Source: Halanaerobium saccharolyticum subsp. saccharolyticum DSM 6643 (GTDB lineage: Bacteria; Bacillota; Halanaerobiia; Halanaerobiales; Halanaerobiaceae). Taken from it: a stretch of 64,000 bases of DNA. The notes under the pieces are model-generated. The model was not told the origin of the DNA. It worked only from the letters and a program-made list of their open reading frames with translations, and made no database searches. The position numbers were made by a program, and so were the translations under genes. This document shows positions 47,125 through 63,969 of the stretch, piece by piece. The DNA lies in assembly GCF_000350165.1 (NCBI RefSeq), contig NZ_CAUI01000023.1, forward strand, positions 372,001-436,000. Direction: 5' to 3'. Each line of letters starts with the position of its first letter. Positions within the stretch are counted from its first letter, which is position 1.

Positions 47125-47984
47125 TTTAATAACCCTTTATTTTCACTACCACATAATTTTATTTTTTTCTTTACTAATTCTTTCATGCTTGCTTTACCAG
47201 GTTTTAAATATTTCCGCGGGTCATTAGCATCAGGATTTTCATTAAAATAGCTCTTTACTGCATCTGAAAAAGCAATTTTTAATTCTGTAGCAATATTAAC
47301 CTTTGTAATTCCCATTGCTATTGATTTTTTAACATCCTTATCTGGAACACCGGAAGCTCCATGCAGAACTAAAGGAACATCCACATTATTTTCTATAGCT
47401 TTTAAGCGTTTATAATCGATTTTAGGGTCTTTTTTATACAAACCATGGGCTGTTCCAATTGCAACAGCCAAAGAATCAATTCCTGTTCTATTAACAAAGT
47501 CAGCTGCTAAATTGGGATCTGTTAATTGAGAATCTGCATCACTAACTTTTATATCATCTTCCTGACCTACTAACTTGCCTAGTTCAGCTTCTACACTTAC
47601 ATCATATAATCTGGCGAATTCAACTACTTCTTTAACCTTAGCAATATTTTCCTCATAATCTAAAGCTGAAGCATCAATCATAACTGATTTACAGCCTAAC
47701 TTTATTGATTCTTTTATATCCTCAATATTTTCATGATGATCTAAATGAAAAGCAATTGGCACTGTTGACTCTGCTGCTGCACTTTTCATGATATTTACTA
47801 AATAACGCGCTCCTGCAAATCTAATTGTTCCTGGTGTTGCTGCAATAATTATTGGAGAGTTCAATTCTTCTGCAGCTTCAACTACAACTTTTGTAGTTTC
47901 GAGGTTGTGTATGTTAAACGCTGGAACAGCATATCCTCTTTTTTGAGCATCTAATAAAAGGTTTTTATTTGAAATAATAAACAT
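47121..47984 (-). CDS. Class II tagatose/fructose-bisphosphate aldolase (GatY/KbaY type)
   Basis: A 287-residue zinc-dependent aldolase that splits the bisphosphate into dihydroxyacetone phosphate and glyceraldehyde-3-phosphate. AVPAFNIHNLETTKVVVEAA at the start, AFHLDHHENIEDIKESI with the zinc His, VEAELGKLVGQED and LHGASGVPDKDV are class II signatures. The long ORF opens at 48032, but those codons coincide with the tail of a broken deacetylase gene in another frame; AAGGAAGTGAT precedes ATG 47984, which I use. Context (AgaS, BadF-type kinase, tagatose-6-phosphate-type kinase) favours tagatose-1,6-bisphosphate. Confidence 0.9.
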   Translation of the reverse strand: MFIISNKNLLLDAQKRGYAVPAFNIHNLETTKVVVEAAEELNSPIIIAATPGTIRFAGARYLVNIMKSAAAESTVPIAFHLDHHENIEDIKESIKLGCKSVMIDASALDYEENIAKVKEVVEFARLYDVSVEAELGKLVGQEDDIKVSDADSQLTDPNLAADFVNRTGIDSLAVAIGTAHGLYKKDPKIDYKRLKAIENNVDVPLVLHGASGVPDKDVKKSIAMGITKVNIATELKIAFSDAVKSYFNENPDANDPRKYLKPGKASMKELVKKKIKLCGSENKGLLK

Positions 47985-48003
47985 TAAATCACTTCCTTTA
48001 AAA

Positions 48004-48120
48004 TTATTTTCTATATACAATATTTCCATCAATTACTGTTGCATAAATATTCATTTTTTCATCTACCACAGTCAGATTAGCTTTTTTATCTAATTTTATG
48101 TTAAATTGAAACCAAGAAAA
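48004..48120 (-). pseudogene. nagA: C-terminal remnant of a NagA/AgaA-type N-acetylhexosamine-6-phosphate deacetylase
   Basis: On the minus strand a stop-to-stop frame reads NIKLDKKANLTVVDEKMNIY then ATVIDGNIVYRK and a TAA at 48004-48006. This resembles the closing beta-strand block of NagA-type amidohydrolases (KxADLVVLDEDLNVxATxVxGKxVY). About the last 30-35 codons remain; the metal-binding barrel (about 350 residues) is missing. A stop codon and non-coding AT-rich DNA lie upstream. The remnant ends 20 bases before the aldolase start, so a deletion probably removed the 5' part while keeping the aldolase's ribosome binding site. The deacetylase is exactly the enzyme expected between kinase and AgaS. 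Confidence 0.72.
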
Positions 48121-48424
48121 AATTATTATTCAATAGCTTTAAATAAAAAGTGTTGTGAATTTGAATAATTGAAAGAAAAATTTATAAAAAAAGAATATAA
48201 TTAAAAAATAATTCAGAATCAAAGTTAAAATAGTAAATTTTAAGAATCTACTTCAAAACTAAAACTAGCAACTCTATAGTCTAAGAATATATTTTCAGCA
48301 ATATATAGTTTTTATTAATGAAAAATTTACTAAACAAAGACAAGAATCTTATTGTTAAGAATATTTATTTAGATTTTGAGATAAATTATTTTCTTGCTAT
48401 TATTTTATATATTAATAATATTAT
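48121..48424. other. 304-base gap between the permease gene and the deacetylase remnant
   Basis: AT-rich DNA with no supported gene and no strong hairpin. A plus-strand ORF beginning at 48318 runs into the permease gene in antisense and has no ribosome binding site. This is where the 5' part of the deacetylase gene would be expected, so I read it as deletion or decay scar. Confidence 0.5.
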
Positions 48425-49261
48425 TTATCCCTTTACAGCTCCAGCCGTTAATCCACTTATTAAATACCTATTTAAAAATATAACAACAATTAAAGGAGGT
48501 ATAATAGTTAACATCCCAGCAGAAGACATCAATCCATAATTAATGCTATGTTTACCAACATATTCAGTTATTAATACTGTTAAAGGTTTTGCCTGGTTTG
48601 GAGCAAATACTAAGGGTATAACAAATTGGCTCCACGTATTTAAAAAAGTTAAAATAGCTACAGATATAATACCAGGAGTAACTAATGGTAGAATTGTTAG
48701 AAAAGATTTAAATCTTGATGCTCCTGCAATCATCGCAGCTTCTTCTAATTCATCTGGTATAGTATTAAAATGACTTCTCATTAACCATAAACCTAACGGG
48801 ATAAAGGCAGAAGAGTAAATCAATATAATTCCTGTATATGTATCCAATAATCCTATATTTATAATAATTTTATACAATGGTATCATTACTGCATAAGCTG
48901 GCAAAGTCATTGTTGCGATTACTAAACCAAATATTATATTATTTCCAAAAAAGTTTATTTTTGAAAAAACATACCCAGCAATTGATGATACTAAAATAAC
49001 TATTATAGTAGCTCCACCACAAGCAACAAATGAATTAATCAATGCATTTTTAAAATTCCTACTCATACTTTGATCATTATCATTGAATCCTAACAGCAAG
49101 CTATAATTTTCAAGATTAATTCTTCCTGGTATTAAATTTAAGTCTTTTGATCTCAATAAATCTTCATCTAACAAACTTGTCCTTAACCCCCATAAGATAG
49201 GGAATAATGACCATGTTAATATTAAAAAGAGTAAAAATATTATTATATACTTTCTTTTCAT
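48425..49261 (-). CDS. MalG/UgpE-type carbohydrate ABC transporter permease
   Basis: A 278-residue inner-membrane permease with six predicted helices. The EAA loop is EEAAMIAGASRFKSFLTILPLVTPGI. RGLRTSLLDED near the start and ISGLTAGAVKG at the end are typical of MalG/UgpE-like proteins. It pairs with the MalF-type permease whose stop lies 3 bases upstream. No ATPase gene is in the cluster. The ATG has GAGGAGGAT upstream. Confidence 0.91.
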   Translation of the reverse strand: MKRKYIIIFLLFLILTWSLFPILWGLRTSLLDEDLLRSKDLNLIPGRINLENYSLLLGFNDNDQSMSRNFKNALINSFVACGGATIIVILVSSIAGYVFSKINFFGNNIIFGLVIATMTLPAYAVMIPLYKIIINIGLLDTYTGIILIYSSAFIPLGLWLMRSHFNTIPDELEEAAMIAGASRFKSFLTILPLVTPGIISVAILTFLNTWSQFVIPLVFAPNQAKPLTVLITEYVGKHSINYGLMSSAGMLTIIPPLIVVIFLNRYLISGLTAGAVKG

Positions 49262-49264
49262 TTT

Positions 49265-50131
49265 TTAATCCTCCTCTTTTCCAATAAAAACTATATAGCT
49301 TATGGTTAATGTTAATATAATAATTGCTACAATTAATGATAACGCCATACCTTTACTTAATTTTAATTGTCTGAATGCTATTAAATAGTTTTGCATTAAT
49401 ATTGTTCTTGTATCCAATGCCAAACCATTTAAAACAAAAACTTCATCGAATAGGTTCATTACAAAAAAAGTTCCTTGAGTCATAGCAATAACAATTGCTG
49501 GTTTAAGTAGAGGTAAAGTAATTTTTGTGAATTCCTGAAAACTACTAGCTCCATCTATTTTAGCTGCCTCATATAACTCCTTAGAGATGGTTTGTAATTG
49601 AGCTAATATAATAATAACAAAAAGAGGTAATATTTTCCATACATGAACTAAAGCTATGAAGATCAATGACAAGTTTGGTTTAGCTAACCATACTTGATAT
49701 CCATCAATTAAACTAAAATTTGCTAATAAATTATTTAATAATCCAAAATTAGGATGATAAATCCATTTCCAAATCACTGCATTTACAACTGGTGGGAGTG
49801 CCCAAGGTAATATTATTAATGCAAGTATTATTCCTCTCCCCATAAAATTACGTCTCAATATTAAAGAAATAATTATACCACCAACTAACTCTAAAGTAAC
49901 AGCTAATAAAAAATATTTCATACTATTACCAATCACTTGTAATATTGTTGAGCTAGTTAATAATTCTTTAAAATTACTTAACCCTACAAATTCATTTTGT
50001 TGAGGTTTTACTAAATCTATAGAGTATAAACTATCTACTATAGTTAAAACTGCAGGATAGAATACTAATGCTATCATTATTATTAATAATGGAGATATTA
50101 ATATATAAGAAAAAATATTTTTATTTTTCAT
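49265..50131 (-). CDS. MalF/UgpA-type sugar ABC transporter permease
   Basis: A 288-residue inner-membrane permease with six helices and an EAA loop KELYEAAKIDGASSFQEFTKITLPLLKPAI. The N-terminus (FSYILISPLLIIMIALVFYP) and TM order are typical of MalF/UgpA-like proteins. It forms a heterodimer with the next gene's product. The ATG has TTGAGGTGA upstream. The gap from the binding-protein gene contains a hairpin with a short T-run. Confidence 0.91.
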   Translation of the reverse strand: MKNKNIFSYILISPLLIIMIALVFYPAVLTIVDSLYSIDLVKPQQNEFVGLSNFKELLTSSTILQVIGNSMKYFLLAVTLELVGGIIISLILRRNFMGRGIILALIILPWALPPVVNAVIWKWIYHPNFGLLNNLLANFSLIDGYQVWLAKPNLSLIFIALVHVWKILPLFVIIILAQLQTISKELYEAAKIDGASSFQEFTKITLPLLKPAIVIAMTQGTFFVMNLFDEVFVLNGLALDTRTILMQNYLIAFRQLKLSKGMALSLIVAIIILTLTISYIVFIGKEED

Positions 50132-50146
50132 TTTTTCACCTCAAAA

Positions 50147-50181
50147 ATAATGGGGATTACAAAAACTGCAATCCCCATTAT
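50147..50181 (-). terminator. Intercistronic attenuator-like hairpin after the binding-protein gene
   Basis: Perfect 12-bp arms ATAATGGGGATT/AATCCCCATTAT with an 11-base loop, followed on the minus strand by TTTTT and then immediately by the ribosome binding site GAGGTG of the permease. It is a leaky terminator by design: it lowers permease expression relative to the binding protein. Confidence 0.85.
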
Positions 50182-50199
50182 AATATTATTTATTACTTA

Positions 50200-51474
50200 C
50201 TAATCAGTTAATTTATGACTTTCTTCAACTAATTTATTCATACCTTCTTCTAATGAAATAGAATCTTTAGCCATTTGATTAATGGTGGTAGCTACAATTG
50301 TACTAAATTCTGGGTACCATGGTGGTGTTCCCTGAGGGAATAAAGGTTCAATTGTTTTCATCACATTTAATATAGTTTCTCCTGCAGGTAATTCGCCTTC
50401 ATTATTTAACTCATTGATAACTTTTTTTGAATTTGGAAATAGACCTAATTCTTTATATAATCTTTTAGCATTGTCTGGTCTATTTAAGAATTGAATGAAT
50501 TTGGCAGCTGCTTCCTTATTATCAGATGCTTTAGGTATTCCATAACCTTCCACTAATCCAAATGTAGTTGAATCATTTTTCTTGCCTGGTACAGGTATCA
50601 TTTTTACATCTTCTGCTACACTTGATTCTGATTCATCTGAATATACTGCCATATTTCCAGCCCAACCTGCTAAATCAATAGAGGTCTCCCCAGACTTAAA
50701 TGCTTCTATTATATCAACATCTTTATATTGCGTTGAAGCAGGATCAACAATTTTATGTTTCTGGAGAGAATTTATTAATAATTTCATGGCTTGATAACCA
50801 GCAGAATTTTCGTCTCCAAATAATGGATTCCAGTTTTTATCAAAAAGTTCTCCACCTAAAGCCTTAGTCATTAAATACCAAGGTGTTGCAGATCCCTCAG
50901 TAGCAGAAAGAGGAATTGCTAATGGATATTCAATGTCAGTCTCTTCTTTGATTTTTATAGCTTGTTCAATTAACTCTTCTGAAGAATTCATGTAATTTTC
51001 AATTCCTGCTTCCTTAAAATGATTTGTATTAATATATGTTACACGAAAATCATTAAAATATGGTATTCCTAATGTTTTACCATTGTATTTAAAAATCGAG
51101 GAAGTAGAAATATCTTCAAAAAATTCTTCAGAAAAATATTTATCTAATGGTTCATACCAACCAGCTGCACCAAATTGTCCTACCCAAGACCAATCGAATT
51201 CTGTAACATCAGCAGGAGCCATACCAGCAACACTAGAAGTTACTATTTTATCATGTATATCATCCCAAGCCATAGTCTGGACATTCACTGTAATACCTGT
51301 CTCTTTATTAAATTCATCAAGCATTTCTTGTGGTATATCACTCCATGGAGTTACTAAAGCATCAATTTCTACTCCGTCATATTCTTGAGCAACTCCTGTA
51401 TTAGTTAATGTGAAGGTAAATGTTAACAAAAAAACAAAAGTTATTATCAGTAATTTATTATTAATCTTTAACAT
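50200..51474 (-). CDS. Extracellular sugar-binding protein (family 1 solute-binding protein)
   Basis: A 424-residue exported binding protein for an oligosaccharide/amino-sugar importer. The signal peptide (about 1-27: basic MLKINNK, hydrophobic core) ends near TGVAQEY, without a lipobox. The mature start GVEIDALVTPWSDIPQEMLDEF is typical, as are WSWVGQFGAAGWYEPLD and the closing LNRPDNAKRLYKELG. The ORF opens at 51510, but AAGGGGGA fits the ATG at 51474. It serves the two permeases downstream. With AgaS and the kinase beside it, an amino sugar or its glycoside is the likely ligand. Confidence 0.9.
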   Translation of the reverse strand: MLKINNKLLIITFVFLLTFTFTLTNTGVAQEYDGVEIDALVTPWSDIPQEMLDEFNKETGITVNVQTMAWDDIHDKIVTSSVAGMAPADVTEFDWSWVGQFGAAGWYEPLDKYFSEEFFEDISTSSIFKYNGKTLGIPYFNDFRVTYINTNHFKEAGIENYMNSSEELIEQAIKIKEETDIEYPLAIPLSATEGSATPWYLMTKALGGELFDKNWNPLFGDENSAGYQAMKLLINSLQKHKIVDPASTQYKDVDIIEAFKSGETSIDLAGWAGNMAVYSDESESSVAEDVKMIPVPGKKNDSTTFGLVEGYGIPKASDNKEAAAKFIQFLNRPDNAKRLYKELGLFPNSKKVINELNNEGELPAGETILNVMKTIEPLFPQGTPPWYPEFSTIVATTINQMAKDSISLEEGMNKLVEESHKLTD

Positions 51475-51765
51475 AATTTTCCCCCTTATAAGTTGGTTAA
51501 AAAGTAACAATTAAATGATTTTATTATATTAAAATAAACCATTCAATAATTTGATATCTAACAAGAATAGAAACATTTACATATTTCGATTTATTTTTAA
51601 AATTCTGATTAAAAATATCTAGAAAAAAAGATAAGTCGATAAAAGCCAGCCCGTCATTATTACATTTAATTTTGGAATGTTATAATACTTTTTTAATTTA
51701 AAAATTAGTTAAGAAAATAATTCTAATTATTTCATAGTATAATAATCACCTCCATATTTTATTTT
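51475..51765. other. 291-base gap containing an orphan ribosome binding site
   Basis: No gene is seen. On the minus strand 51738-51757 holds GGAGGTGATTA followed by an ATG with only one further codon (AAA) before TAA. The rest is AT-rich without a stable hairpin. The strong binding site with nothing behind it may mark a lost gene or be an accident. Confidence 0.45.
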
Positions 51766-52755
51766 TTAATTAATATTTTCATACTCTTTAAGTTTACTTA
51801 AAACATTTTTACTATAGTTCATTTTATTTTCATATGATAATTTAGCATATAAAGCTGCTCCAGTTACTGGTTTTAAAATCGGCTCTACCAATTTCACATC
51901 ATAAGATAATTCATTTAAATATTTTTCAAATGGTTCTAGAACAAACTCTCCAGCCTTAAAAACTCCTCCAGAATATGATATTTTAACTGAATCATCTACA
52001 AAATTAAGTTTGTTTATAATAGCTTTTATAGTTAAAAAATGTTCATATGCAGCTTCTTTATACAACTTTAAAGCAACCTTATCTTCTAATAATGCCGCTT
52101 CATATAAAATCTTCGCTAGAGATGCAATTTTTTTTCTATCCATTTCATATTCATCATATAAAATATCTAAAATTTCAAAATCATTTTTAACTCCAAAGTA
52201 ATTTCTTATTATTTCATATAATTTTGTTTTTTTAATTCTATTATCAGATTCTTTTGTAAAATAAGAAATCATTTTTTTACTTAACCAAAAAGCAGATCCT
52301 TCATCTCCATAATAATATCCCCAACCGCTAGATCTTGCTTTATTACCGTTACTATCTTTACCAAAACCTATTGCTCCAGTACCTGCCACTAAATTTATAC
52401 CAGGCTTACATGCCAAAGAACCAGCCCAACCTACTTCAACATCATTACCACATAAGAAATTTGAGCTTTTTAAAATATTTTTTATATGTTTTTCTACTAA
52501 ATTAATTTTTCCATTTCTAACTTCATCTCCATAACCTGGAACACCTATAAATGTAAAATCTATTTCATTTGAAATAATATTTGCTTTTTTACAAACTTTA
52601 TTCAACCCTTCATCAAGATTGTTTTTAAAAGAGTCTATACCAACCTGTAAAATATGTATACTCTCCGTTCTAGATTCTGCTAACACACTTCCTTTTTCAT
52701 CAATTAATAAATATCTTGTCTTAGAACCTCCCCCATCTATACCTAAATAATACAA
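51766..52755 (-). CDS. BadF/BadG-type N-acetylhexosamine kinase
   Basis: A 329-residue sugar kinase of the actin-like ATPase (ASKHA) superfamily. The phosphate-1 motif is LGIDGGGSKTRYLLID, the catalytic/sugar region VAGTGAIGFGKDSNGN, with SSGWGYYYGDEGSAFWLSKK and the adenosine motif ISYSGGVFKAG. This subgroup includes N-acetylglucosamine kinase; with AgaS nearby, N-acetylgalactosamine or galactosamine phosphorylation at C6 is plausible. The start is TTG with AAGGAGTG upstream. It lies 76 bases after agaS, in the same operon. Confidence 0.88.
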   Translation of the reverse strand: MYYLGIDGGGSKTRYLLIDEKGSVLAESRTESIHILQVGIDSFKNNLDEGLNKVCKKANIISNEIDFTFIGVPGYGDEVRNGKINLVEKHIKNILKSSNFLCGNDVEVGWAGSLACKPGINLVAGTGAIGFGKDSNGNKARSSGWGYYYGDEGSAFWLSKKMISYFTKESDNRIKKTKLYEIIRNYFGVKNDFEILDILYDEYEMDRKKIASLAKILYEAALLEDKVALKLYKEAAYEHFLTIKAIINKLNFVDDSVKISYSGGVFKAGEFVLEPFEKYLNELSYDVKLVEPILKPVTGAALYAKLSYENKMNYSKNVLSKLKEYENIN

Positions 52756-52831
52756 AAATATCCACTCCTTACAATTAATTTGATATAATAAATTCTATAA
52801 TCTTTAATAAGGAAACACCCCTAAATATATA

Positions 52832-54007
52832 TCATTTTTTATAGGGATATATTTTCACTCCTTGAACAACTCTATTTACACTTCCATCTGGACTTGGATT
52901 ATCTGGATTAATTCCGGAGTGTATTGATTTATAAAGTGAAATAATTTGAGCATAAATTATATATTCCAATGTATTAAATACTTCATCTTCATCATCCATT
53001 TTAGAGTATGAAGATAGATAAAAGTCACACTTTTCTTTTATTTTTTTCCTGTTCTTTATAGTAATTACTGCAGTTTTATAACCCAATTTACTTTTATTTA
53101 ATTCATTTAACAAATCATATTCATATTTAAGATTATATTCATTATCAGACAGAAAAAATAAGATTAGTGAATCTTTATCTATTATTGACTTTGGACCATG
53201 TCTAAACCCTAAAGGAGTATCATATCGAGTAATGATTTGACCTGATGTTAATTCGAGAAGTTTTAGACTAGCTTCTTTTGCTACACCAAAGAAACTATAA
53301 TCCCCTAAATAAATAATCTTTTTAAAGTCAGCTTCTAATAATTTTTTATTGTCACAAAAGCTATCTATAATTTCCTCTGCTGCTTTAGCTTTTAGCTCAA
53401 CTGTAGAGTTTAACTTGTCCAGCTCTTCAATATTAAAAAACAATAATGCAGTTAAAAGCATAGAAGTGTAGCTACTGGTCATTGCAAAACCACGGTCATT
53501 AGTTTTTTTTGGTAGTAAAACCAATTGATTATATGAATCAGAAACTTTCTGTGCAAGCTTGCCTTCTTTGTTACATGTGATTACTAGCTGATAAAGATCA
53601 TTAACCATTTCTTCTGCCAATTCAATTGCTGCCACACTTTCTGGGCTATTGCCTGAACGTGCAAATGAAATTAACAATGTTGGAATTTTTTTATTAAAAT
53701 ATACTTCAGGATGAGTTACAAGTTCTGTAGTATGAACTGATGCAGTTTCAAATTGTGGAAACTTCTTTTTTAAATATGGTGTTAAAGAATCACCAATAAA
53801 ACCTGAGGTACCTGCACCTGCAAATATTATATTTAACCGTTCCATATTCATTAGTTTTTTATAAAAATTAATAAGATCTTTTTTGATTTCTTTAACTTTC
53901 TTATAAGTCTGTCTCCACATCTCAGGCTGCTGAACAATTTCTTCAGCGGTATATATTCCATTTTTTTCTTTCCATTTTTCCTTGGTCATGCCTAATATCC
54001 TTTTCAT
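52832..54007 (-). CDS. agaS: AgaS-type SIS-domain sugar isomerase/deaminase
   Basis: A 391-residue protein with two SIS domains (about 45-190 and 215-350). Sugar-phosphate-binding motifs are FAGAGTSGFIGD and LISFARSGNSPESVAA, and the AgaS-specific stretch TPLGFRHGPKSI with closing SVNRVVQGVKIYP is clear. AgaS converts galactosamine-6-phosphate to tagatose-6-phosphate and ammonia. The ATG has GAGGTGG upstream. A copy of the GntR operator (54026-54046) overlaps its leader. The products feed the tagatose-type kinase and aldolase genes downstream. Confidence 0.9.
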   Translation of the reverse strand: MKRILGMTKEKWKEKNGIYTAEEIVQQPEMWRQTYKKVKEIKKDLINFYKKLMNMERLNIIFAGAGTSGFIGDSLTPYLKKKFPQFETASVHTTELVTHPEVYFNKKIPTLLISFARSGNSPESVAAIELAEEMVNDLYQLVITCNKEGKLAQKVSDSYNQLVLLPKKTNDRGFAMTSSYTSMLLTALLFFNIEELDKLNSTVELKAKAAEEIIDSFCDNKKLLEADFKKIIYLGDYSFFGVAKEASLKLLELTSGQIITRYDTPLGFRHGPKSIIDKDSLILFFLSDNEYNLKYEYDLLNELNKSKLGYKTAVITIKNRKKIKEKCDFYLSSYSKMDDEDEVFNTLEYIIYAQIISLYKSIHSGINPDNPSPDGSVNRVVQGVKIYPYKK

Positions 54008-54025
54008 AATACCACCTCTTAATTA

Positions 54026-54046
54026 TATTATGTTGTCATTACAAGT
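54026..54046 (-). promoter_or_regulatory. Probable GntR operator, copy 2 (upstream of agaS)
   Basis: A 21-base sequence shared with 54804-54824 at 20 of 21 positions, core TTGTCATTACAA on the plus strand (a half-palindrome TTGT...ACAA). It lies 20 bases before the agaS start, in the only gap between gntR and agaS. Confidence 0.75.
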
Positions 54047-54047
54047 T

Positions 54048-54070
54048 GAGTAAAAATTCAATTTTTACTC
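54048..54070. repeat. Perfect 23-base palindrome spanning the GntR stop codon
   Basis: GAGTAAAAATT on both arms around one central base. The palindrome includes the gntR TAA stop codon (54065-54067) and abuts the agaS operator copy. It may be a short terminator/attenuator or an additional binding site. Confidence 0.55.
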
Positions 54071-54799
54071 AAGAACAACATGAAATTTAAATTTATCTCC
54101 TCTAGCTACACTTACAGTGTATTCAATGACTTTTTCCTTCTCATAAGTTAATCTTTTCAATAGAATAGCTGGGGAATTTTCTTTAACTTCAAGATGTTTT
54201 TCTTCTTCAGCTGTTATAGAAGTTGCTTGAAAAGTTTCTTCAGCTTTTTCAAAGTTTACATTATATTTATCTGAAAAAATATCATACATTGCTTTATTAC
54301 TTAGCAATTCTTTGTTTAAGCCTCGAAATCTATCTACAGGTAGATAAGTGGTTTCTAGCATCATTGGCAGATCATCTGCAAGTCTCAATCTAGTAAATTT
54401 ATAGATCTTTGTATGAATATCTATATTTAGTATTTCTGAAATTTTAGCATCGGCTTTTTTAATTTCAAATTTAAGCACATTTGAAGAAGGCTCTTTCCCA
54501 TTTTTTTTCATTTCTTCAGTAAAACTATAAAAACTTAAAAGGTCTTGCTCAAAAGCTTCAGAAGAAATAAAAACACCTTTACCCTGTTTTTTATATATAT
54601 AATTATTTTTTTCTAGTTCAACCATGGCTCTTCTTACTGTTGCTCGACTGATATCATATTCTTCACAAAGTTCTCTTTCAGATGGTAATTTATCATTTTC
54701 ATTGTATATACCACTATGAATTTTTTCTGTAATTATATCATATAACTGATAATATAATGGTAATCTATTATCAGTGCTTACCTTATTCAAGTTAACCAC
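54065..54799 (-). CDS. GntR-family (HutC/UTRA) transcriptional regulator
   Basis: A 244-residue repressor. An N-terminal winged helix (about 10-80) contains LPSERELCEEYDISRATVRRAM and KQGKGVFIS. The C-terminal UTRA ligand domain (about 95-240) has the usual LPMMLETTYLP and closing EYTVSVARGDKFKFHVVLE. It is the first gene of the amino-sugar operon and is expected to respond to a phosphorylated amino sugar. Matching operators sit at its own promoter and before agaS. The start codon has AAGAGGTG upstream. Confidence 0.92.
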   Translation of the reverse strand: MVNLNKVSTDNRLPLYYQLYDIITEKIHSGIYNENDKLPSERELCEEYDISRATVRRAMVELEKNNYIYKKQGKGVFISSEAFEQDLLSFYSFTEEMKKNGKEPSSNVLKFEIKKADAKISEILNIDIHTKIYKFTRLRLADDLPMMLETTYLPVDRFRGLNKELLSNKAMYDIFSDKYNVNFEKAEETFQATSITAEEEKHLEVKENSPAILLKRLTYEKEKVIEYTVSVARGDKFKFHVVLE

Positions 54800-54869: not shown

Positions 54870-55649
54870 TTAAATTTTCCTTCTTAAATATTCTAAATCT
54901 TCGGGAGTTCCAACATCCTGACAGTAGTCTTCACTTTTAACTGCAAAGAGTTTAGTTTCTGATTTTAACATTAGATTAACGGCAGTCGGCAGTTCATACT
55001 CGCCTCTTTTAGATGGCTTTACCTGATCGATCCACTTAAAAATTTCTGGAGAAAAAAGATAGATCCCGGCACTATTCCAGCCCCCACCTTCAATTTCTGG
55101 CTTTTCAGTAATTGTTTGGACCTGGTAAAAATCTGCTGCTGTCGTTTTTAAGTCGGCTGCTGCTGCCTGCTCAAATTCTACTAATCCACCTTTTTTTATC
55201 TGATCCAGCCAGTTTAAAAGCATAATTGACTGCGGTAATTTTAAGTTAGTTAATGATTTGATCATCTTTAGATAATTTTGGGGTTTAGTAATAATATCGC
55301 CATAAGACATTAAGAAAAATTTATCTTTAAGTATAGATCTAGCTTCCTCGACTGCAGCTGCTGTGCCATAAGAATCAAGATTCTGCTCTAAATAAATCAG
55401 TTCCAGTCCATAAGCACTTTCCCCAAGATACTCTTTTATCTTTTTGCCTTTGTAGGCAATAATTATAATTACTTTTTTTAAGCCTGCTGCAGCATAACCT
55501 TTTAAAATATAATCAATTACTTTCATCCCAGCTTTAATTTCAACTAAAGCTTTTGGAATCTCATCTGTTATCTCGCCTAAGCGGGTACCCCTACCTGCAG
55601 CTAAAATAAGTCCATACTCTAACTTTTGTTTTTTAAGATTAGACATCAT
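54870..55649 (-). CDS. Sugar-1-phosphate nucleotidyltransferase
   Basis: A 259-residue enzyme that makes an NDP-sugar from NTP and sugar-1-phosphate in the cytoplasm. The N-terminal LILAAGRGTRLGEITDEIPKAL is the nucleotidyltransferase signature, with the metal/nucleotide Asp in MSYGDII and a later WNSAGIYLFSP; the C-terminal SEDYCQDVGTPEDL is also typical. It is the last gene of the operon and follows the phosphohexomutase, so the pair makes sugar-1-phosphate and then NDP-sugar. ATGs at 55649 and 55646 are both possible starts behind GGAGG. Confidence 0.88.
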   Translation of the reverse strand: MMSNLKKQKLEYGLILAAGRGTRLGEITDEIPKALVEIKAGMKVIDYILKGYAAAGLKKVIIIIAYKGKKIKEYLGESAYGLELIYLEQNLDSYGTAAAVEEARSILKDKFFLMSYGDIITKPQNYLKMIKSLTNLKLPQSIMLLNWLDQIKKGGLVEFEQAAAADLKTTAADFYQVQTITEKPEIEGGGWNSAGIYLFSPEIFKWIDQVKPSKRGEYELPTAVNLMLKSETKLFAVKSEDYCQDVGTPEDLEYLRRKI

Positions 55650-55663
55650 AATTCCTCCAAAAA

Positions 55664-57103
55664 TTATATTCCTAAATCATTTTTTAAAAGCTTAAGAATT
55701 TCCTGTACCTCAACCTCATTTTCCATCTCCATATAGATTCTAAGCAGCGGCTCAGTTCCGGAAAAACGAATTGAAATCCAGCACTGATCATCATAATAAT
55801 ATTTGACTCCATCTAGATAACTGGTTTTAAGCAGCTTCTTTTCTGAAATTAAATCATTTTCAATTAAATTACTTAAATTAGGCTGGTATTTATCTTCAAA
55901 AAGCATTGTTTCCAGTCTTTTTCTCTGTGATGGCTGATAGTCAAAATTAGAATAGGAAAAATATAAAGAGCCAAACTTTTGCTCAATTTCAGCTAATATT
56001 TCACCAATTTTTTTACCGGTTCTGGCCATCATTTCTACTGCCAATAAAGATGCTAAAATACCGTCTTTTCCATTGACATGACCTCTAATTTTTAGACCTC
56101 CACTGCTTTCTCCCCCCAACAGCAGATCATGCTGCTGCATTTTTTGGGAGATATTTTTGAAGCCAACAGGAACTTCATAAGCTTCTTCTCCATAATAATC
56201 TGCCATCTCATCTAGAATATGGGTAGTGGCAATATTTCTGACAATACCTCCACTCTCATTTCTATATTCTTTAAGATAATAATATAATAACTTTAAAACA
56301 TCATTATAATCTACAAATTTACCAGCCTCATCTATCAGAGCCATCCGATCAGAATCACCATCAGTAGCCAGACCAAAATCATATTTACCTTTTTCTATTC
56401 TAACTTCCATATCACCAAGCTGTTCCCGATTAGGTGAAGGAATATCTAGGCCAAACATTGTATCGCGATAGGCATTCATAGTATCTACATAGCAGCGCAA
56501 GGAAGCCAGACACATCATCATAATATCTTTGGCTACTCCATACATCGGATTAAAAAGAATTTTAAAATTTTTAGATTGAATTATCTCTTCATCAATTAAC
56601 TCCAGCAGTGAATCTATATACTGATTTTTATTATTATAATATGTTATTTTACCTGCTTTAATTAATTCAAAAAAACTACCCCGCTGATAATCATAATCTC
56701 CAATTTCTGCAGCTAACTCTTCCAGTCGATCAGTAACTTTCTCTGGTGCATCTCTACCCTCTTCTACAAATATTTTAATCCCATTATATTCAGCAGAGTT
56801 ATGAGATGCTGTAATTGAAGCACCTAAATTTAAATTATTTTCCTCAACGGCCAGCATAACCATTGGCGTTGGAGCAGCTTCTTCCATAAACATAACTTCA
56901 ATTCCTTCTTCGACCAGACTTTCTGAGAGCGCACGTGAAAAACGGCCGGATAAAAAACGAAAATCATGTCCTACCACTACCTTTTTTTTATAATCATTTT
57001 CTTTAAGATAGCAGGCCATAGCCTTCCCCACCAGTTTAACATTATAGAAGGTAAAATCTTCAGCAATAATTGCCCGCCAGCCGCCTGTACCAAATTTTAT
57101 CAT
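55664..57103 (-). CDS. Phosphoglucomutase/phosphomannomutase family protein
   Basis: A 479-residue alpha-D-phosphohexomutase that moves phosphate between C6 and C1 of a hexose. Motifs are in order: KFGTGGWRAI, the catalytic serine in ITASHNSAEYNGIK, metal-binding ATDGDSDRMALID, sugar-binding GGESSGGLKI and phosphate-binding IRFSGTEPLLRIY. All active-site motifs are intact. The start follows the permease by 4 bases, so it is part of the importer operon. Its product would be the substrate of the downstream nucleotidyltransferase. Confidence 0.92.
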   Translation of the reverse strand: MIKFGTGGWRAIIAEDFTFYNVKLVGKAMACYLKENDYKKKVVVGHDFRFLSGRFSRALSESLVEEGIEVMFMEEAAPTPMVMLAVEENNLNLGASITASHNSAEYNGIKIFVEEGRDAPEKVTDRLEELAAEIGDYDYQRGSFFELIKAGKITYYNNKNQYIDSLLELIDEEIIQSKNFKILFNPMYGVAKDIMMMCLASLRCYVDTMNAYRDTMFGLDIPSPNREQLGDMEVRIEKGKYDFGLATDGDSDRMALIDEAGKFVDYNDVLKLLYYYLKEYRNESGGIVRNIATTHILDEMADYYGEEAYEVPVGFKNISQKMQQHDLLLGGESSGGLKIRGHVNGKDGILASLLAVEMMARTGKKIGEILAEIEQKFGSLYFSYSNFDYQPSQRKRLETMLFEDKYQPNLSNLIENDLISEKKLLKTSYLDGVKYYYDDQCWISIRFSGTEPLLRIYMEMENEVEVQEILKLLKNDLGI

Positions 57104-57107
57104 TAGA

Positions 57108-57941
57108 TCACCCCTTTGTTCCTGAAGTAAGCATTCCTCTTACAAAATACTTCTGCATTGACATATAGACTAAAAGAATTGGTAAAATAGAAAGTACTGA
57201 TCCGGCTAATAAAAGATGCCATTGAGTACCATAATTTCCTTTAAACATTGCCAACCCCATTGTTACTGTATAGAGCTCAGGTTTATCAATATAGATTACC
57301 GGTCTTAAAAGAGCATTCCAGTTATTCATAAAAGCAATAATAAATAGTGAAGCTAGAGAAGGCTTAGCATTAGGAAGAAAAACCCGATAATACATCTGCC
57401 AGTCAGTTACTCCATCAATAAAAGCAGCTTCTTCCATTGAAGAAGGCATATTTTCAAAAGTACTGCGAAATAAGAAAGTACCAAAAGATCCAATTAAAAT
57501 TGAAGGTACTATTAATGGTAAATAAGTATTATACCAGCCTAATTTAAGCATGATAAAGTACTCGGGAATAATTGTTACCTGAATCGGCATCATCATAGTT
57601 GCTAACATTAAAGCAAAAATAACTTCTTTACCCTTAAATTCCATTCGCGCAAAAGCAAATCCCCCCAGACTGCAGGTGAAAAGCTGACCTAAAGCGGCCA
57701 TTCCTGCAACAAAAAAGGAGTTTATAATAAATCTGATAAAATTATATTCATTTAAAATTGTTTGATAGTTATCCCACATACCTGCTTGGAATAATTTCTC
57801 GGGAATAAAGCTTGGAGTTAAAGCAAATATTTCTCCCATCGTTTTAAAAGAAGAAGAAAGCATCCATAAAAAAGGAAAAATTGTAGTTAAAGAAATAATA
57901 ATCAAAATCGAATATAATAAAACTTTTCTGCCAGTACTCAT
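57108..57941 (-). CDS. MalG/UgpE-type carbohydrate ABC transporter permease
   Basis: A 277-residue inner-membrane permease with six predicted helices and an EAA loop MEEAAFIDGVTDWQMYYRVFLPNAKP. The C-terminal YFVRGMLTSGTKG is typical. It pairs with the MalF-type permease directly upstream, 13 bases away. No ATPase gene occurs in this operon either. The ATG has AGGGGGTG upstream. Confidence 0.91.
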   Translation of the reverse strand: MSTGRKVLLYSILIIISLTTIFPFLWMLSSSFKTMGEIFALTPSFIPEKLFQAGMWDNYQTILNEYNFIRFIINSFFVAGMAALGQLFTCSLGGFAFARMEFKGKEVIFALMLATMMMPIQVTIIPEYFIMLKLGWYNTYLPLIVPSILIGSFGTFLFRSTFENMPSSMEEAAFIDGVTDWQMYYRVFLPNAKPSLASLFIIAFMNNWNALLRPVIYIDKPELYTVTMGLAMFKGNYGTQWHLLLAGSVLSILPILLVYMSMQKYFVRGMLTSGTKG

Positions 57942-57954
57942 CTAATAGCACCCC

Positions 57955-58830
57955 CTATTCGCTGTAATTTACCCAGCGTTTTTTATATTTAAAGTTCAAA
58001 TAGGTAAATACAGCTACAATTATAAATAAAACATAAGACATTGCAGAAGCATAGCCCATTCTAAAATGTTTAAAAGCATTAACATAAATACTAAAAATCA
58101 GAGTTGATGAAGCATAATTTGGACCACCCTGAGTCATAATATAAGTTAATTCGAAAGTTTTAAGTGACATAATAATTGAAATTATAAGTACAAAAAAAGT
58201 TGTTGGCGAAAGCAGCGGCAGAGTAATATATCTAAACTTTTGCCAGACACTTGCCCCATCAATTGTTGCTGCTTCATAATACATTTCTGGAATGTTTTGT
58301 AGTCCTGCTAAAAATAATATCATCTGGTAACCGGCCATTTTCCAGATATAAACAAAAATTAAGGTAAAAAGTGCATATTTTGCATCTCCAAGTAGAGATG
58401 GAATACGGGCCAGACCAAAAAACTGATTTAAAATTTGATAGACAAGTCCAAAGCGGGGACTTAAAATCCAACTCCAGATAACTCCAATTGAGACAACAGA
58501 AGTAATTACCGGTAAATAAAAAAGACCTCTAAAAAATGTCATTCCCCTTAACTTATTATTAACTAAAAGTGCTAAAAATAAAGCAACAATCATTACTCCT
58601 GGCACAAATACTGTAGAGAAAATAACTGTGTTTTTTAAAATAAGGAGAAAAATATCTGAGCTGAATAATTCTTTGTAATTACCGAGCCCAATCCATTTGG
58701 GAGCAGAAAAAACATTCCAGCGGGTAAAACTTGCCAAACCAGCTGCCAGCATCGGCCCCAATCTAAAGAAAACTAAACCTAAAATAGTTGGAATTAGAAA
58801 AATCCAGGGTGTAGATTTTTTATAACGCAT
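57955..58830 (-). CDS. MalF/UgpA-type sugar ABC transporter permease
   Basis: A 291-residue inner-membrane permease with an EAA loop YEAATIDGASVWQKFRYITLPLLSP. The N-terminal TPWIFLIPTILGLVFF and MLAAGLASFTRWNVF are typical of MalF/UgpA proteins. The ORF opens at TTG 58833, but GGAGGTAC fits the ATG at 58830. It is downstream of the binding-protein gene after an attenuator-like hairpin. Confidence 0.91.
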   Translation of the reverse strand: MRYKKSTPWIFLIPTILGLVFFRLGPMLAAGLASFTRWNVFSAPKWIGLGNYKELFSSDIFLLILKNTVIFSTVFVPGVMIVALFLALLVNNKLRGMTFFRGLFYLPVITSVVSIGVIWSWILSPRFGLVYQILNQFFGLARIPSLLGDAKYALFTLIFVYIWKMAGYQMILFLAGLQNIPEMYYEAATIDGASVWQKFRYITLPLLSPTTFFVLIISIIMSLKTFELTYIMTQGGPNYASSTLIFSIYVNAFKHFRMGYASAMSYVLFIIVAVFTYLNFKYKKRWVNYSE

Positions 58831-58849
58831 CAAAGTACCTCCTTAAAAA

Positions 58850-58889: not shown

Positions 58890-60200
58890 CTATTCTTCAG
58901 GATAATATCTTTCTAAGACTTCATTACCATGTTTGGTGAATGATTCAATTGCTTCTTCTACTGTCATTTCACCATTAGTAACACTATCAAGTACACCATT
59001 CATTCCGGCTCCACCTGTGTCAGCATAACCGCGCCATTCTCCCCAACCAATGGTAAAACTGGTTCTACCAATCATTTCTCCTAATTCTAAAACAATCTCC
59101 ATTTCAGCTGGCTGTTTATCTTCTTCAATCCACTGCTCAGAATTTGCAAGTTCTTTATTAATTGGTACTTTACCTGCCATGTAGGATTCTAAAGGTCGAT
59201 TTTTACCAACTAAATATTTAACCAATTTCCAGGCAGCCTCTTGCTGCTCACTATTTTTTGAAATAGCTATCGAATCTGGCCAACCATAAGCCTCGTAGTC
59301 ACCTGGTTCAGCAGAAGGACCTGCAGGTACCTTTGCTATTCCCCAGTCAAATTTACCATTTACCATATCACGTACATGCTGAATATTCCAGGAACCATCA
59401 ACCCACATTGCAGTCTGCTCTAAGGGGAACATATCCTGCTGTCTGATACCAACTATATCTCGCTTGGGAGGTGAAACATTATATTTATTGCTTAAATCTC
59501 CAAGAAACTCTAGTGCTTCTTTAGCTTTAGCGTCAACTTCAATTCTGGTTTTATCTTCATTTAAAATTCGACCACCATTAGCATAAACCCAGGGCTCAAC
59601 ATGAGCATAACGTCCATACCACCAGTGACCATAACGCTCAGCAATTCCATCCTCATTCTCATCTATTGTCAGCTCGACAGCTGCTTTTCTAAAATCTTCC
59701 CAGCTCCAATTTTCATCAGGATAATCTAATCCTGCCTGATCAAACATATCTTTATTATAATATAAAACTGTTGTTACCCAGGCATAGGGCATTCCATACA
59801 TATCACTGCTTTCTTTATCTGGATAACGCAGGGTTGAAAATACCTTAGTAAAATAATCATCCTGGGGCAGAGTATCAACCTGATCCTGAATATTCATCAA
59901 AAGGCCATCCTGCGCCCACTGGTCTATATAACCTGAAGACATGCTGAATACATCGGGTAGTTCACCAGCAGAAGCCATTGCAGAAATTTTTGGCCAGTAA
60001 TTTGAAGGTTCTAAAGCAGTAAATTCAACTTCGATATCTGGATTTTCTGCTTCAAACTGATCAATTAATTTTTGTTCTACCGCTTTAAATTCTGGATCCC
60101 ACATAAAATAACGGATTGTTGTTGTCTGAGCATAAGCTGCTGCAGCAAAACTAAGAATTAAAAATAATGTTAAACTGATAACTAATAATTTTTTTTGCAT
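58890..60200 (-). CDS. Extracellular sugar-binding protein (family 1 solute-binding protein)
   Basis: A 436-residue exported binding protein. The signal peptide (about 1-24) ends near AAAYAQT with no lipobox Cys. The mature start TTIRYFMWDPEFKAVEQKLIDQFEAENP is typical of UgpB/MalE-like proteins. Sugar-stacking aromatics occur in WAQDGLLMNI, YAWVTTVLYYNKD and the Trp-rich WGEWRGYADTGG. It serves the two permeases downstream. It lies 10 bases after the phosphodiester-glycosidase-like gene. The stop is TAG. Confidence 0.91.
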   Translation of the reverse strand: MQKKLLVISLTLFLILSFAAAAYAQTTTIRYFMWDPEFKAVEQKLIDQFEAENPDIEVEFTALEPSNYWPKISAMASAGELPDVFSMSSGYIDQWAQDGLLMNIQDQVDTLPQDDYFTKVFSTLRYPDKESSDMYGMPYAWVTTVLYYNKDMFDQAGLDYPDENWSWEDFRKAAVELTIDENEDGIAERYGHWWYGRYAHVEPWVYANGGRILNEDKTRIEVDAKAKEALEFLGDLSNKYNVSPPKRDIVGIRQQDMFPLEQTAMWVDGSWNIQHVRDMVNGKFDWGIAKVPAGPSAEPGDYEAYGWPDSIAISKNSEQQEAAWKLVKYLVGKNRPLESYMAGKVPINKELANSEQWIEEDKQPAEMEIVLELGEMIGRTSFTIGWGEWRGYADTGGAGMNGVLDSVTNGEMTVEEAIESFTKHGNEVLERYYPEE

Positions 60201-60210
60201 TTTTATCCCC

Positions 60211-61746
60211 CTATAATTTTGATATAAACCCTATTGTCGGCACCATTCTTTCGTAGACAACTCCAGGTAAGCCTCTGCGATCTGCTGTTTTAAAAAGACT
60301 TCCATACAGATATTGAATATTTGCGGAACCACCTCCATCCAAATTCAAAGCATATTTATAATTTCTTTTGTGAGCCCACTCTGCCAGTTCAAGCAGGGTA
60401 GCTCCAGAAGATTCATCACCAGCTTCCATGCCAGTATTTACTGATTCTACTGCCAGCAGACAAAACTCATTTTTATAATTAATACCTGCTGCCAGTCGGG
60501 CAGCTCTGGTCTGATCAATATCATCGGCATAATCTGTTGGTACAACTCTTTCAAACTGTGCTCTCTCAATTTGAGAACTTTGACCACAAAAATCTTCTGC
60601 TTCCAAACTATTATGATCAAGTTTTAAGTCACCGTTTTTAACTAAAATAGGTCCGGTTTGGACGGCGCTTATATATTTTTTACCATTATTGAATTTATAC
60701 TTAACTTTTTGTTCTAAGTTAGAATCAAAATTAAAATCCTGTTCCGGTAAAGAAAGAATAAAAGCATTTTGTGGAATTTCAGTTCTTCCACCTTTTTTAA
60801 TGCCAACAATCAGATCATTAATGATTACAATCTCAATTTTTCCTTTGGCCTGAGGTGTAATTCCCAGGGCTTTATTTTTAGTCTTAACTCCATATTGACG
60901 GGTATAAAGACTGTAATCTGCATTTTCATTAACTTTAAATTTACTTAAATCCCACTCTCTATTTTGAAGCTGAATACTTAGATCTGTTAAAAAAACTTTT
61001 TTTAGTTTCCAGTTATTAGCTTCAGTTTTAAGCAAAGCTGAGCGCTTATAAAGGGGAGGACTGATTATTTGACCAGCACTAATTAACAAACCATAATGAT
61101 CTCCTAATAAAGAATATTTGCTTTCCCAGTCTGCTTCTTCTAAAAGGAAATAGCTGCAGTTAAAAACTAATGGATATTCATGCTGGCGGCTGTAAACTGA
61201 GGGATATGCAATCTCTCCCACTGCTGCTAAATCTCTTTTATAATCTAAAGTCTGATAGATTTCTTGGTCACTAAGTTCATCCTCTGTCTGATAAATTTTA
61301 AGCCGCTGCTCTTTTTCCAGCAGAGAAATTATTTTTGCAGCCTCTGCCGTTTTTGAATTTTTATCTTTAACTTTTAGGCGATTATTTCTAATTAAATAGT
61401 TTTTAGATTTGATTAAAGCCCTTAATTTTTCAGTAATTAAAGCATTTAAGCTTAGATATTCTTCAGCTGCTCCAGCTAAAAGATCTGGAAAATATTCACC
61501 GGCTGCCCTTTGATGATCATAGGCCGCCCAGACTATAACCAGTGGTTTTTCGACTCCTCTTGCGGCAGCTTTTAAAAGCCGAATGTGGGCTGTATCAAAT
61601 AATTTTTGCTGCCAGTTTTTATTTTCCAGCTTAGCAAAGTCAATAGTGCTTGAGTCTTTAACTTTCATTTCTACTAAATTATAATAACTTCCATCTTCTC
61701 TGCTTACCTGCTGGCGATTATAATCCATTGCTTTAGCTAAAATCAT
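60211..61746 (-). CDS. Phosphodiester-glycosidase-like (NAGPA/DUF2233) protein with a novel N-terminal region
   Basis: A 511-residue protein. The C-terminal half (about 190-511) resembles the phosphodiester glycosidase (NAGPA) domain: VFNCSYFL then GDHYGLLISAGQIISPP, later VQTGPILVKNG, ALNLDGGGSANIQYLYG and MVPTIGFISKL. Such domains cleave sugar-1-phosphodiesters. I recognise no family for the first ~190 residues, which are mostly helical and charged. There is no signal peptide or membrane segment, unlike most relatives, so it should act in the cytoplasm. The ATG overlaps the ROK stop by 14 bases, with AAAGGAG 7 bases upstream. It is co-expressed with the importer and sugar-nucleotide genes behind it. 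Confidence 0.8.
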   Translation of the reverse strand: MILAKAMDYNRQQVSREDGSYYNLVEMKVKDSSTIDFAKLENKNWQQKLFDTAHIRLLKAAARGVEKPLVIVWAAYDHQRAAGEYFPDLLAGAAEEYLSLNALITEKLRALIKSKNYLIRNNRLKVKDKNSKTAEAAKIISLLEKEQRLKIYQTEDELSDQEIYQTLDYKRDLAAVGEIAYPSVYSRQHEYPLVFNCSYFLLEEADWESKYSLLGDHYGLLISAGQIISPPLYKRSALLKTEANNWKLKKVFLTDLSIQLQNREWDLSKFKVNENADYSLYTRQYGVKTKNKALGITPQAKGKIEIVIINDLIVGIKKGGRTEIPQNAFILSLPEQDFNFDSNLEQKVKYKFNNGKKYISAVQTGPILVKNGDLKLDHNSLEAEDFCGQSSQIERAQFERVVPTDYADDIDQTRAARLAAGINYKNEFCLLAVESVNTGMEAGDESSGATLLELAEWAHKRNYKYALNLDGGGSANIQYLYGSLFKTADRRGLPGVVYERMVPTIGFISKL

Positions 61747-63060: not shown

Positions 63061-63969
63061 TTAACTGTAAAATTCGACTGTCTGCTCTAGTCCAGCTTTA
63101 AAATCATAAGCTGGACTCCAGTTAAGAATTTCTTTGGCCTTTGAATTATCTAAGGATGAATGCAAAATATCACCCGGGCGCGCTTCCTCATAGATTGGCT
63201 TTAAATCATAAGCTGAAATCTGATTTAAATTAGCAACCAGATCATTAACACTATCTCGGTTGGCAGTGCTGATATTAAGCAGTGAGTTATCTCCACTTTT
63301 TAAAGCCAGAATATTAGCCTTAACTATATCATAAACATGAATAAAGTCTCTGGTCTGCTGACCATCTCCAAAAATATGCGGTCTTTTTTGAGCCAGCATC
63401 TGGTCAACAAAGATTGAAACAACCCCGCCCTCTCCTTTAGGGTCCTGACGAGGACCATAAGCATTGGCATAACGAAAAATTGTATATTTAAGATTATATA
63501 ATTGACTGTACATTTTTATGTAATGTTCTGGAGTGTGTTTGCTAATTCCATAAGGCGACATTGCTTTGATTGGATGCTCTTCATCTATAGGTAAATATTC
63601 GGGCTCACCATAAACTGCAGCTGATGAAGCATAAATAATCTTTGCTACCTCATGTTCCCGACAGTTTTCTAATAAATTAATTGTCCCTAAAATATTATTT
63701 TGAGCATCAAATGAAGGATCTTTAATTGAATGCTGAACATCTATCTGAGCTGCATGATGAATAACATGAGTAATCTCATTGGCTGCAAAAACTTTTTTTA
63801 ATTCCTCATTCCGAATATCCAATTGATAAAATTCAGCCTGTTGGTTTAAATTTTTCTTTTTCCCGGTACTTAAATTATCTACTACTATTACCTTGTGTCC
63901 TTTTGCTATTAATCCATCGACTAGATTAGAGCCAATAAAACCAGCTCCACCTGTTACTAAAATCTGCAT
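63061..63969 (-). CDS. GalE-like NAD-dependent sugar epimerase (SDR family)
   Basis: A 302-residue extended short-chain dehydrogenase. The nucleotide-binding motif TGGAGFIGSNL starts the protein. The catalytic serine segment ASSAAVYGEPEY and the YGISK catalytic Tyr/Lys pair are intact, and RYANAYGPRQDPKGEGGVVSIF with FGDGQQTRDFIHV is typical of UDP-glucose 4-epimerase-type enzymes. It probably converts a UDP-hexose at C4. It is the last gene of its own transcript, upstream of the ROK operon on the same strand. The remaining 31 bases of the window hold only its ribosome binding site (ACAGGAG). Confidence 0.88.
   Translation of the reverse strand: MQILVTGGAGFIGSNLVDGLIAKGHKVIVVDNLSTGKKKNLNQQAEFYQLDIRNEELKKVFAANEITHVIHHAAQIDVQHSIKDPSFDAQNNILGTINLLENCREHEVAKIIYASSAAVYGEPEYLPIDEEHPIKAMSPYGISKHTPEHYIKMYSQLYNLKYTIFRYANAYGPRQDPKGEGGVVSIFVDQMLAQKRPHIFGDGQQTRDFIHVYDIVKANILALKSGDNSLLNISTANRDSVNDLVANLNQISAYDLKPIYEEARPGDILHSSLDNSKAKEILNWSPAYDFKAGLEQTVEFYS

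Follow-up and report, generated by a model that had tools for sequence, protein, structure and literature searches.

The NAGPA reaction converts a sugar-1-phosphodiester (sugar-1-P-R) into free sugar and R-phosphate. The human uncovering enzyme releases GlcNAc from GlcNAc-phosphodiesters (GlcNAc-1-P-6-mannose) and also hydrolyses UDP-GlcNAc to UDP and GlcNAc (PMC12024695). Bacterial NAGPA proteins are common, little studied and thought of as exported. Agrocinopine-type uptake pairs an importer with an intracellular phosphodiesterase, which cuts the imported sugar phosphodiester.

We analysed a stretch of 64,000 nucleotides from Halanaerobium saccharolyticum subsp. saccharolyticum DSM 6643 (hereafter the window), which encodes a NAGPA-like protein inside a sugar importer operon. 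Relatives in Agrobacterium stand among N-acetylglucosamine-breakdown genes and point to an unstudied route in which a phosphate-linked sugar may be imported first and cut afterwards.

The NAGPA-like gene and its operon

The genes of the cluster are listed below from upstream to downstream.

63061..63969, minus strand: UDP-glucose 4-epimerase-like SDR (GalE-like); best PDB match 4zrm, 303 bits
61733..62884, minus strand: ROK-family transcriptional regulator (HTH + ROK); shares 14 bp with the NAGPA-like gene
60211..61746, minus strand: NAGPA-like protein P0001; 511 aa plus stop, ATG start
58890..60200, minus strand: solute-binding protein of a CUT1 ABC importer; 10 bp after the NAGPA-like gene
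57955..58833, minus strand: ABC permease; 47% identical to its A. fabrum counterpart
57108..57941, minus strand: ABC permease; 45% identical to its A. fabrum counterpart
55664..57103, minus strand: alpha-D-phosphohexomutase; best NCBIfam match Arch_GlmM, below cut-off (284 of 439 bits)
54870..55649, minus strand: sugar-1-phosphate nucleotidyltransferase; best NCBIfam matches Arch_GlmU and AglF, below cut-off

From the ROK gene to the nucleotidyltransferase gene, successive gaps measure -14, 10, 56, 13, 4 and 14 bp. The importer operon proposed in a preliminary description of this DNA is supported, with full-length phosphohexomutase and nucleotidyltransferase genes. The GalE-like gene, whose product has a UDP-glucose 4-epimerase (4zrm) as its closest solved structure, lies 176 bp upstream of the ROK gene. 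The importer was assigned to the CUT1 (MalFG/UgpAE-type) class from the binding protein and two BPD permeases, which are adjacent and co-directional; no ATPase gene for it occurs in the window cluster, nor is any further glycan-cleaving enzyme encoded there besides the NAGPA-like protein. Among proteins of solved structure, the binding protein best matches Lmo0181 and an arabino-oligosaccharide binder, with UgpB far lower.

A GntR regulator, an AgaS-family protein, a BadF-type kinase and a second sugar importer begin 70 bp downstream of the nucleotidyltransferase gene; genes for a tagatose-bisphosphate aldolase and for a hexose-phosphate kinase lie at a greater distance in this region (46198-54799). 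The BadF-type kinase is nearest to NagK_SO3507 (88 bits, below cut-off). The region looks like a galactosamine-type catabolic set and is probably a transcription unit separate from the NAGPA-like operon. Elsewhere in the window, an anaerobic sulfatase-maturase reading frame (44843-45616) matches model positions 148-362 of 363 only and is apparently an N-terminally truncated copy.

The Pfam NAGPA domain (PF09992) was matched at residues 313-503 of P0001 with 50.5 bits against a cut-off of 25, and comparison of its profile with that of 32 NAGPA relatives in the same phylum extended the homology to residues 184-480 (probability 99.8). An AAGGAG-like ribosome-binding site precedes the ATG, and a stop codon stands immediately before it, which excludes a longer upstream start and any signal sequence hidden there. 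The protein contains no hydrophobic segment near its N-terminus of the kind that marks exported types as carrying a signal or anchor, and the peak 19-residue Kyte-Doolittle hydropathy over its entire length is only 0.99. A signal-less N-terminus is common to all five Halanaerobiales homologues, and three of three plasmid members likewise show low hydropathy. The absence of a signal peptide, as previously noted, is confirmed, and a cytoplasmic location is supported for the protein as predicted from its sequence.

Predicted fold and active-site residues

The working model of the NAGPA-like protein, built from an alignment of 47 rows, reached a pLDDT of 84.7 and a pTM of 0.87, its N-terminal part depending on only five sequences; an earlier AlphaFold model from 5 sequences was poor (pLDDT 51) and was not used. 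Its elements include strands at residues 7-15, 21-29 and 34-39, a helix at 45-62 and a strand at 69-74, followed by further ones. The best structural match was 6pku, the catalytic domain of guinea-pig NAGPA (Z 27.6, rmsd 2.9, 246 of 263 residues), aligned to residues 5-511, so that in the predicted model the NAGPA fold covers the whole catalytic domain. All 15 Foldseek matches at E<=0.001 were NAGPA/DUF2233 structures or two bacterial proteins matching the NAGPA profile (5h3k, 6ozd).

Because nearly all of 6pku was aligned, the strands ahead of the NGG motif in that structure can only pair with residues of the model that precede 193. We infer from the model that residues ~5-70 supply the first strands and helix of the NAGPA fold, the sole basis for placing residues 1-80 among NAGPA strands being a structural alignment that reports the first and last aligned residues only; sequence profiles gave no significant match between residues 1-80 and the first strands of exported NAGPAs. 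Residues ~75-190 (~115 residues) look like an insertion in the model, with the rest of the fold at ~190-511. The N-terminal half, earlier described as some 190 unrecognised helical residues, is thus mixed alpha/beta in the model and matches 6pku from residue 5, which leaves only ~75-190 as insertion-like. A separate known domain at residues 1-190 was rejected; the region is uncovered by Pfam and NCBIfam, and PHROGs gave no match. A search of 398 genomes of the phylum with the N-terminal profile returned the family itself alone, besides chance-level matches. One weak match recurred at residues 69-106 and was, in the one locus inspected by eye, to an FtsW-like protein.

The core residues of the protein are N196, R235, GP365-366, TRAAR413-417, NLDGGGS468-474 and R500. 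Across the eight signal-less members identified, R235, P366, R417, D470, G472, G473, S474 and R500 are invariant and N196 is kept in seven; comparison with 42 exported-type NAGPAs showed the same core of N, R, GP, R, DGGGS and R. The D/N-G-R signature differs: R436 is replaced in 8/8 signal-less members and present in 41/42 exported ones, and position 434, which is D, N, T or S among the exported ones, is E in seven of the eight. Residues Q363, T297, E384 and P403 are the signal-less clade's own, and together with the altered signature they suggest that the substrate may differ from that of exported NAGPAs. The R. leguminosarum member is exceptional in carrying A in place of N196 and DSGG in place of DGGG.

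A signal-less clade apart from exported NAGPAs

In a tree of the eight signal-less and 42 exported-type domains (50 rows), the signal-less domains fell on one side of a branch with 100/100 support, and the value was 100/99 once exported NAGPAs of Actinomycetota, Gammaproteobacteria and Bacteroidota, six in all, had been added (56 rows). Both trees cover one region and have long branches, that of P0006 being the longest; the eight rows represent few independent events, the near-identical A. fabrum records being counted once (P0004). By sequence, the NAGPA-like protein is placed in a signal-less clade separate from exported NAGPAs.

Export appears to be the usual state of the family in the phylum, roughly as the preliminary description held. 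A hydrophobic N-terminal segment was present in 68 of 80 distinct NAGPA reading frames, judged from hydropathy and by eye rather than with a signal-peptide program, in loci picked by score that include near-duplicates and locus-cut copies. The other 12 comprise seven cut by the locus end (some of them cut copies of genes already counted), four with a later segment and L144, which has a weaker signal-like stretch; none of these 12 is clearly cytosolic. Four more loci chosen for short frames (L167-L170) were also exported-looking by eye. The genome of the window itself encodes an exported NAGPA paralogue of 752 aa (G000:C20; L027:49-2307), with counterparts in several Halanaerobium genomes.

Distribution and genomic context

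Full-length homologues of the NAGPA-like protein were found at five loci in 4 of 38 Halanaerobiales genomes, and orthologues of the binding protein (E<=1e-60) at five loci in the same four genomes and nowhere else among the 38. Up to the ends of the contigs, the gene order is preserved, from ROK and NAGPA-like through the binding protein and both permeases to the mutase and nucleotidyltransferase. GalE ahead of ROK recurs in L033, from a second family, and not in L030. Genes of the nagA type scored over cut-off in 35/38 genomes of the order, that of the window included (G000:C18), so their presence does not discriminate.

Several loci show partial or modified versions of the cluster. In a fifth genome (G029), L067:5184-5612 is a C-terminal remnant of the NAGPA-like gene only, without the importer cluster. 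In G006 (L088:6628-8346) the mutase survives in truncated form (90% identical) alongside the nucleotidyltransferase (84%); its importer and NAGPA-like genes are absent, and a dipeptide-type transporter, identified by eye, stands in their place. At L087:3084-3617, a HAD-IIA phosphatase gene cut by the contig end follows the mutase and nucleotidyltransferase. At L030:16104-18356, in one MAG only, a single 750-aa frame joins the nucleotidyltransferase to a complete GH32 fructosidase (Pfam E-values 1.7e-95 and 1.5e-26). A fructoside reading of the cluster was given little weight, as the fusion is confined to L030 and close GH32 relatives elsewhere lie in separate operons.

Among 72,556 plasmid records searched, NAGPA-like matches occurred on four; relatives were found neither in viral contigs nor in phages. 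On two near-identical A. fabrum plasmids, the NAGPA-like gene directly follows a binding protein gene and two permease genes, the binding protein being 41% identical to that of the window, which had no other plasmid match at 1e-40. The NAGPA-like gene overlaps that of a ROK regulator, after which come genes for a UgpC-type ATPase, for NagB-II-like (284 bits) and NagA-like (225 bits) proteins and for a Na/Pi transporter, with a NagK-like ROK kinase gene divergent. All three matches, to NagK, NagA and NagB-II types, score under the curated cut-offs. The NagA-like gene (L151:14596-15627) goes out of frame close to its end and is missing from the gene table of the record. The homologous module of binding protein, two permeases, NAGPA and ROK on the A. 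fabrum plasmids shows that the layout, for which the preliminary description knew no parallel, is not unique to the window.

The NAGPA-like genes of A. pusense and R. leguminosarum have no importer of the window type alongside; their other neighbours indicate that importer linkage is not universal. MFS transporter and radical-SAM genes lie near both (L152:8284-15944 in A. pusense; L153:4131-10975 in R. leguminosarum, the latter by eye), and these neighbourhoods are possibly biosynthetic clusters.

Proposed function and alternative readings

We favour, with a probability of about 0.5, a cytoplasmic NAGPA-fold phosphodiester glycosidase that acts behind the ABC importer and cleaves an imported HexNAc-1-phosphodiester, its products passing to catabolism and to the mutase, nucleotidyltransferase and GalE-like protein. 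Beyond a predicted NAGPA fold, a cytoplasmic location and linkage to an importer, which follow from the observations above, we infer the remainder of this scheme, the phosphodiester nature of the substrate included. A small sugar compound carrying an alpha-linked N-acetylhexosamine-1-phosphodiester would be taken up intact by the importer, and the NAGPA-like enzyme would free the N-acetylhexosamine inside the cell, so that a phosphate monoester such as a hexose-6-phosphate is left. The N-acetylhexosamine, to which the NagK-, NagB-II- and NagA-like neighbours in Agrobacterium point, would enter ordinary amino-sugar catabolism; candidate genes are of NagK/NagA/NagB-II types in Agrobacterium and of kinase/AgaS types adjoining the Halanaerobium operon, whose genome has its nagA-type gene at another place. 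The phosphorylated half may then, in Halanaerobium, be carried from hexose-6-phosphate through hexose-1-phosphate and NDP-hexose to its epimer by the mutase, nucleotidyltransferase and GalE-like protein.

Such a two-product scheme would account for the cluster without a further enzyme. It retains from the preliminary description the import of a compound followed by its cleavage inside the cell, consistent with a cytoplasmic protein in an importer operon, and keeps the phosphodiester linkage as a conjecture. The proposal that the sugar re-enters nucleotide-sugar pools is refined: the phosphorylated half fits the mutase, which could accept it without a kinase, unlike the released sugar.

A rival reading has a glycosidase or phosphorylase act inside the cell on an imported alpha-linked oligosaccharide of the ordinary kind, with no phosphodiester, the NAGPA fold having been re-used and the mutase, nucleotidyltransferase and GalE-like protein processing the released sugar after its phosphorylation. 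The resemblance of the binding protein to oligosaccharide binders and the loss of the D/N-G-R signature in favour of clade-specific residues support it and count against a phosphodiester; the lack of such an importer beside two of the three plasmid-borne forms also counts against the favoured scheme. These three points hold our confidence in phosphodiester cleavage at the level given and leave the oligosaccharide reading unlikely, though more probable than the other rivals. It also agrees with a nucleotidyltransferase that carries a fused GH32 domain in one relative and with a window cluster devoid of another glycosidase. However, the fusion is known from that single MAG, GH32 belonging to an operon of its own in other genomes. 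Genes related to phosphate lie next to two relatives (HAD-IIA in L087, the Na/Pi transporter in A. fabrum) and favour a phosphodiester, and phosphodiester cleavage is the activity named for NAGPA proteins in the literature consulted. A more doubtful variant would make the clade a new type of enzyme, a NAGPA-fold phosphorylase, in which phosphate or a nucleotide replaces water, so that sugar-1-phosphate or NDP-sugar arises directly from an imported glycoside or phosphodiester. If true, the enzyme would feed the operon's nucleotidyltransferase, GalE-like protein and mutase, taking the slot that glycoside phosphorylases fill in other importer-mutase operons.

Two further readings dispense with the digestion of an imported compound, and we consider both quite unlikely. 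A nucleotide-sugar hydrolase splitting UDP-HexNAc or the operon's NDP-sugar, and so trimming or signalling nucleotide-sugar levels with no role in import, would suit an operon encoding a nucleotidyltransferase and GalE as well as the activity of the human enzyme on UDP-GlcNAc (PMC12024695). It would nevertheless create a futile cycle with its own operon, and it sits poorly with importer linkage in two distant groups and with linked genes in A. fabrum that are catabolic, a nucleotidyltransferase not being among those listed. Adjacency to, and overlap with, the ROK gene in both the window and A. fabrum, an altered active-site signature and the R. leguminosarum copy without core residues would instead suit a catalytically weak or inactive NAGPA-fold sensor of the imported ligand, for example a partner of the adjacent ROK regulator. 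Retention of D470, R417, S474 and R500 in every member, and of N196 in all save one, argues against this, and the window cluster would then be without any cleaving enzyme.

Phosphodiester cleavage behind the importer would also pose a puzzle: the animal relative destroys UDP-GlcNAc, and a cell that makes UDP-GlcNAc in the same compartment would have to tolerate such an enzyme there. A cytoplasmic, importer-tied clade in two distant groups, with amino-sugar genes beside one of them, offers a handle on the role of bacterial NAGPAs, and the importer's binding protein could be screened to find the substrate of the NAGPA-like enzyme.

Comparison with known systems

The NAGPA family and fold are known; a literature search of open-licence PMC papers returned no description of a cytoplasmic NAGPA in an importer operon and, as far as that literature shows, the cytoplasmic importer-linked clade is undescribed. 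With vertebrate NAGPA, the mannose-6-phosphate uncovering enzyme (6pku, 6pki, 6u11), the window protein shares the catalytic fold in its predicted model and the conserved N, R and DGGGS core. The vertebrate protein resides in the lumen and is synthesised as a pro-enzyme (PMC12024695), whereas the window protein is predicted to be cytoplasmic. In front of its NxxYF strand the window protein carries a putative insertion of ~115 residues, and it has E-S/G in place of the vertebrate D-G. Exported bacterial NAGPA/DUF2233 proteins (3ohg, 5h3k, 6ozd) share PF09992 and the fold, with homology over residues 184-480; they differ in their signal peptides or membrane anchors and in DGR and PRTA motifs that are replaced in the window protein, which groups in a separate clade.

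The Shewanella-type Nag pathway (NagK SO3507 / NagB-II SO3506) has possible counterparts in the NagB-II-, NagA- and NagK-like genes, matched below curated cut-offs, that accompany the A. fabrum NAGPA-like gene; to our knowledge, a NAGPA-like step is not part of that pathway. Agrocinopine-type uptake follows the same principle as that proposed for the window system, with a different enzyme family, a different binding protein and different by-products.
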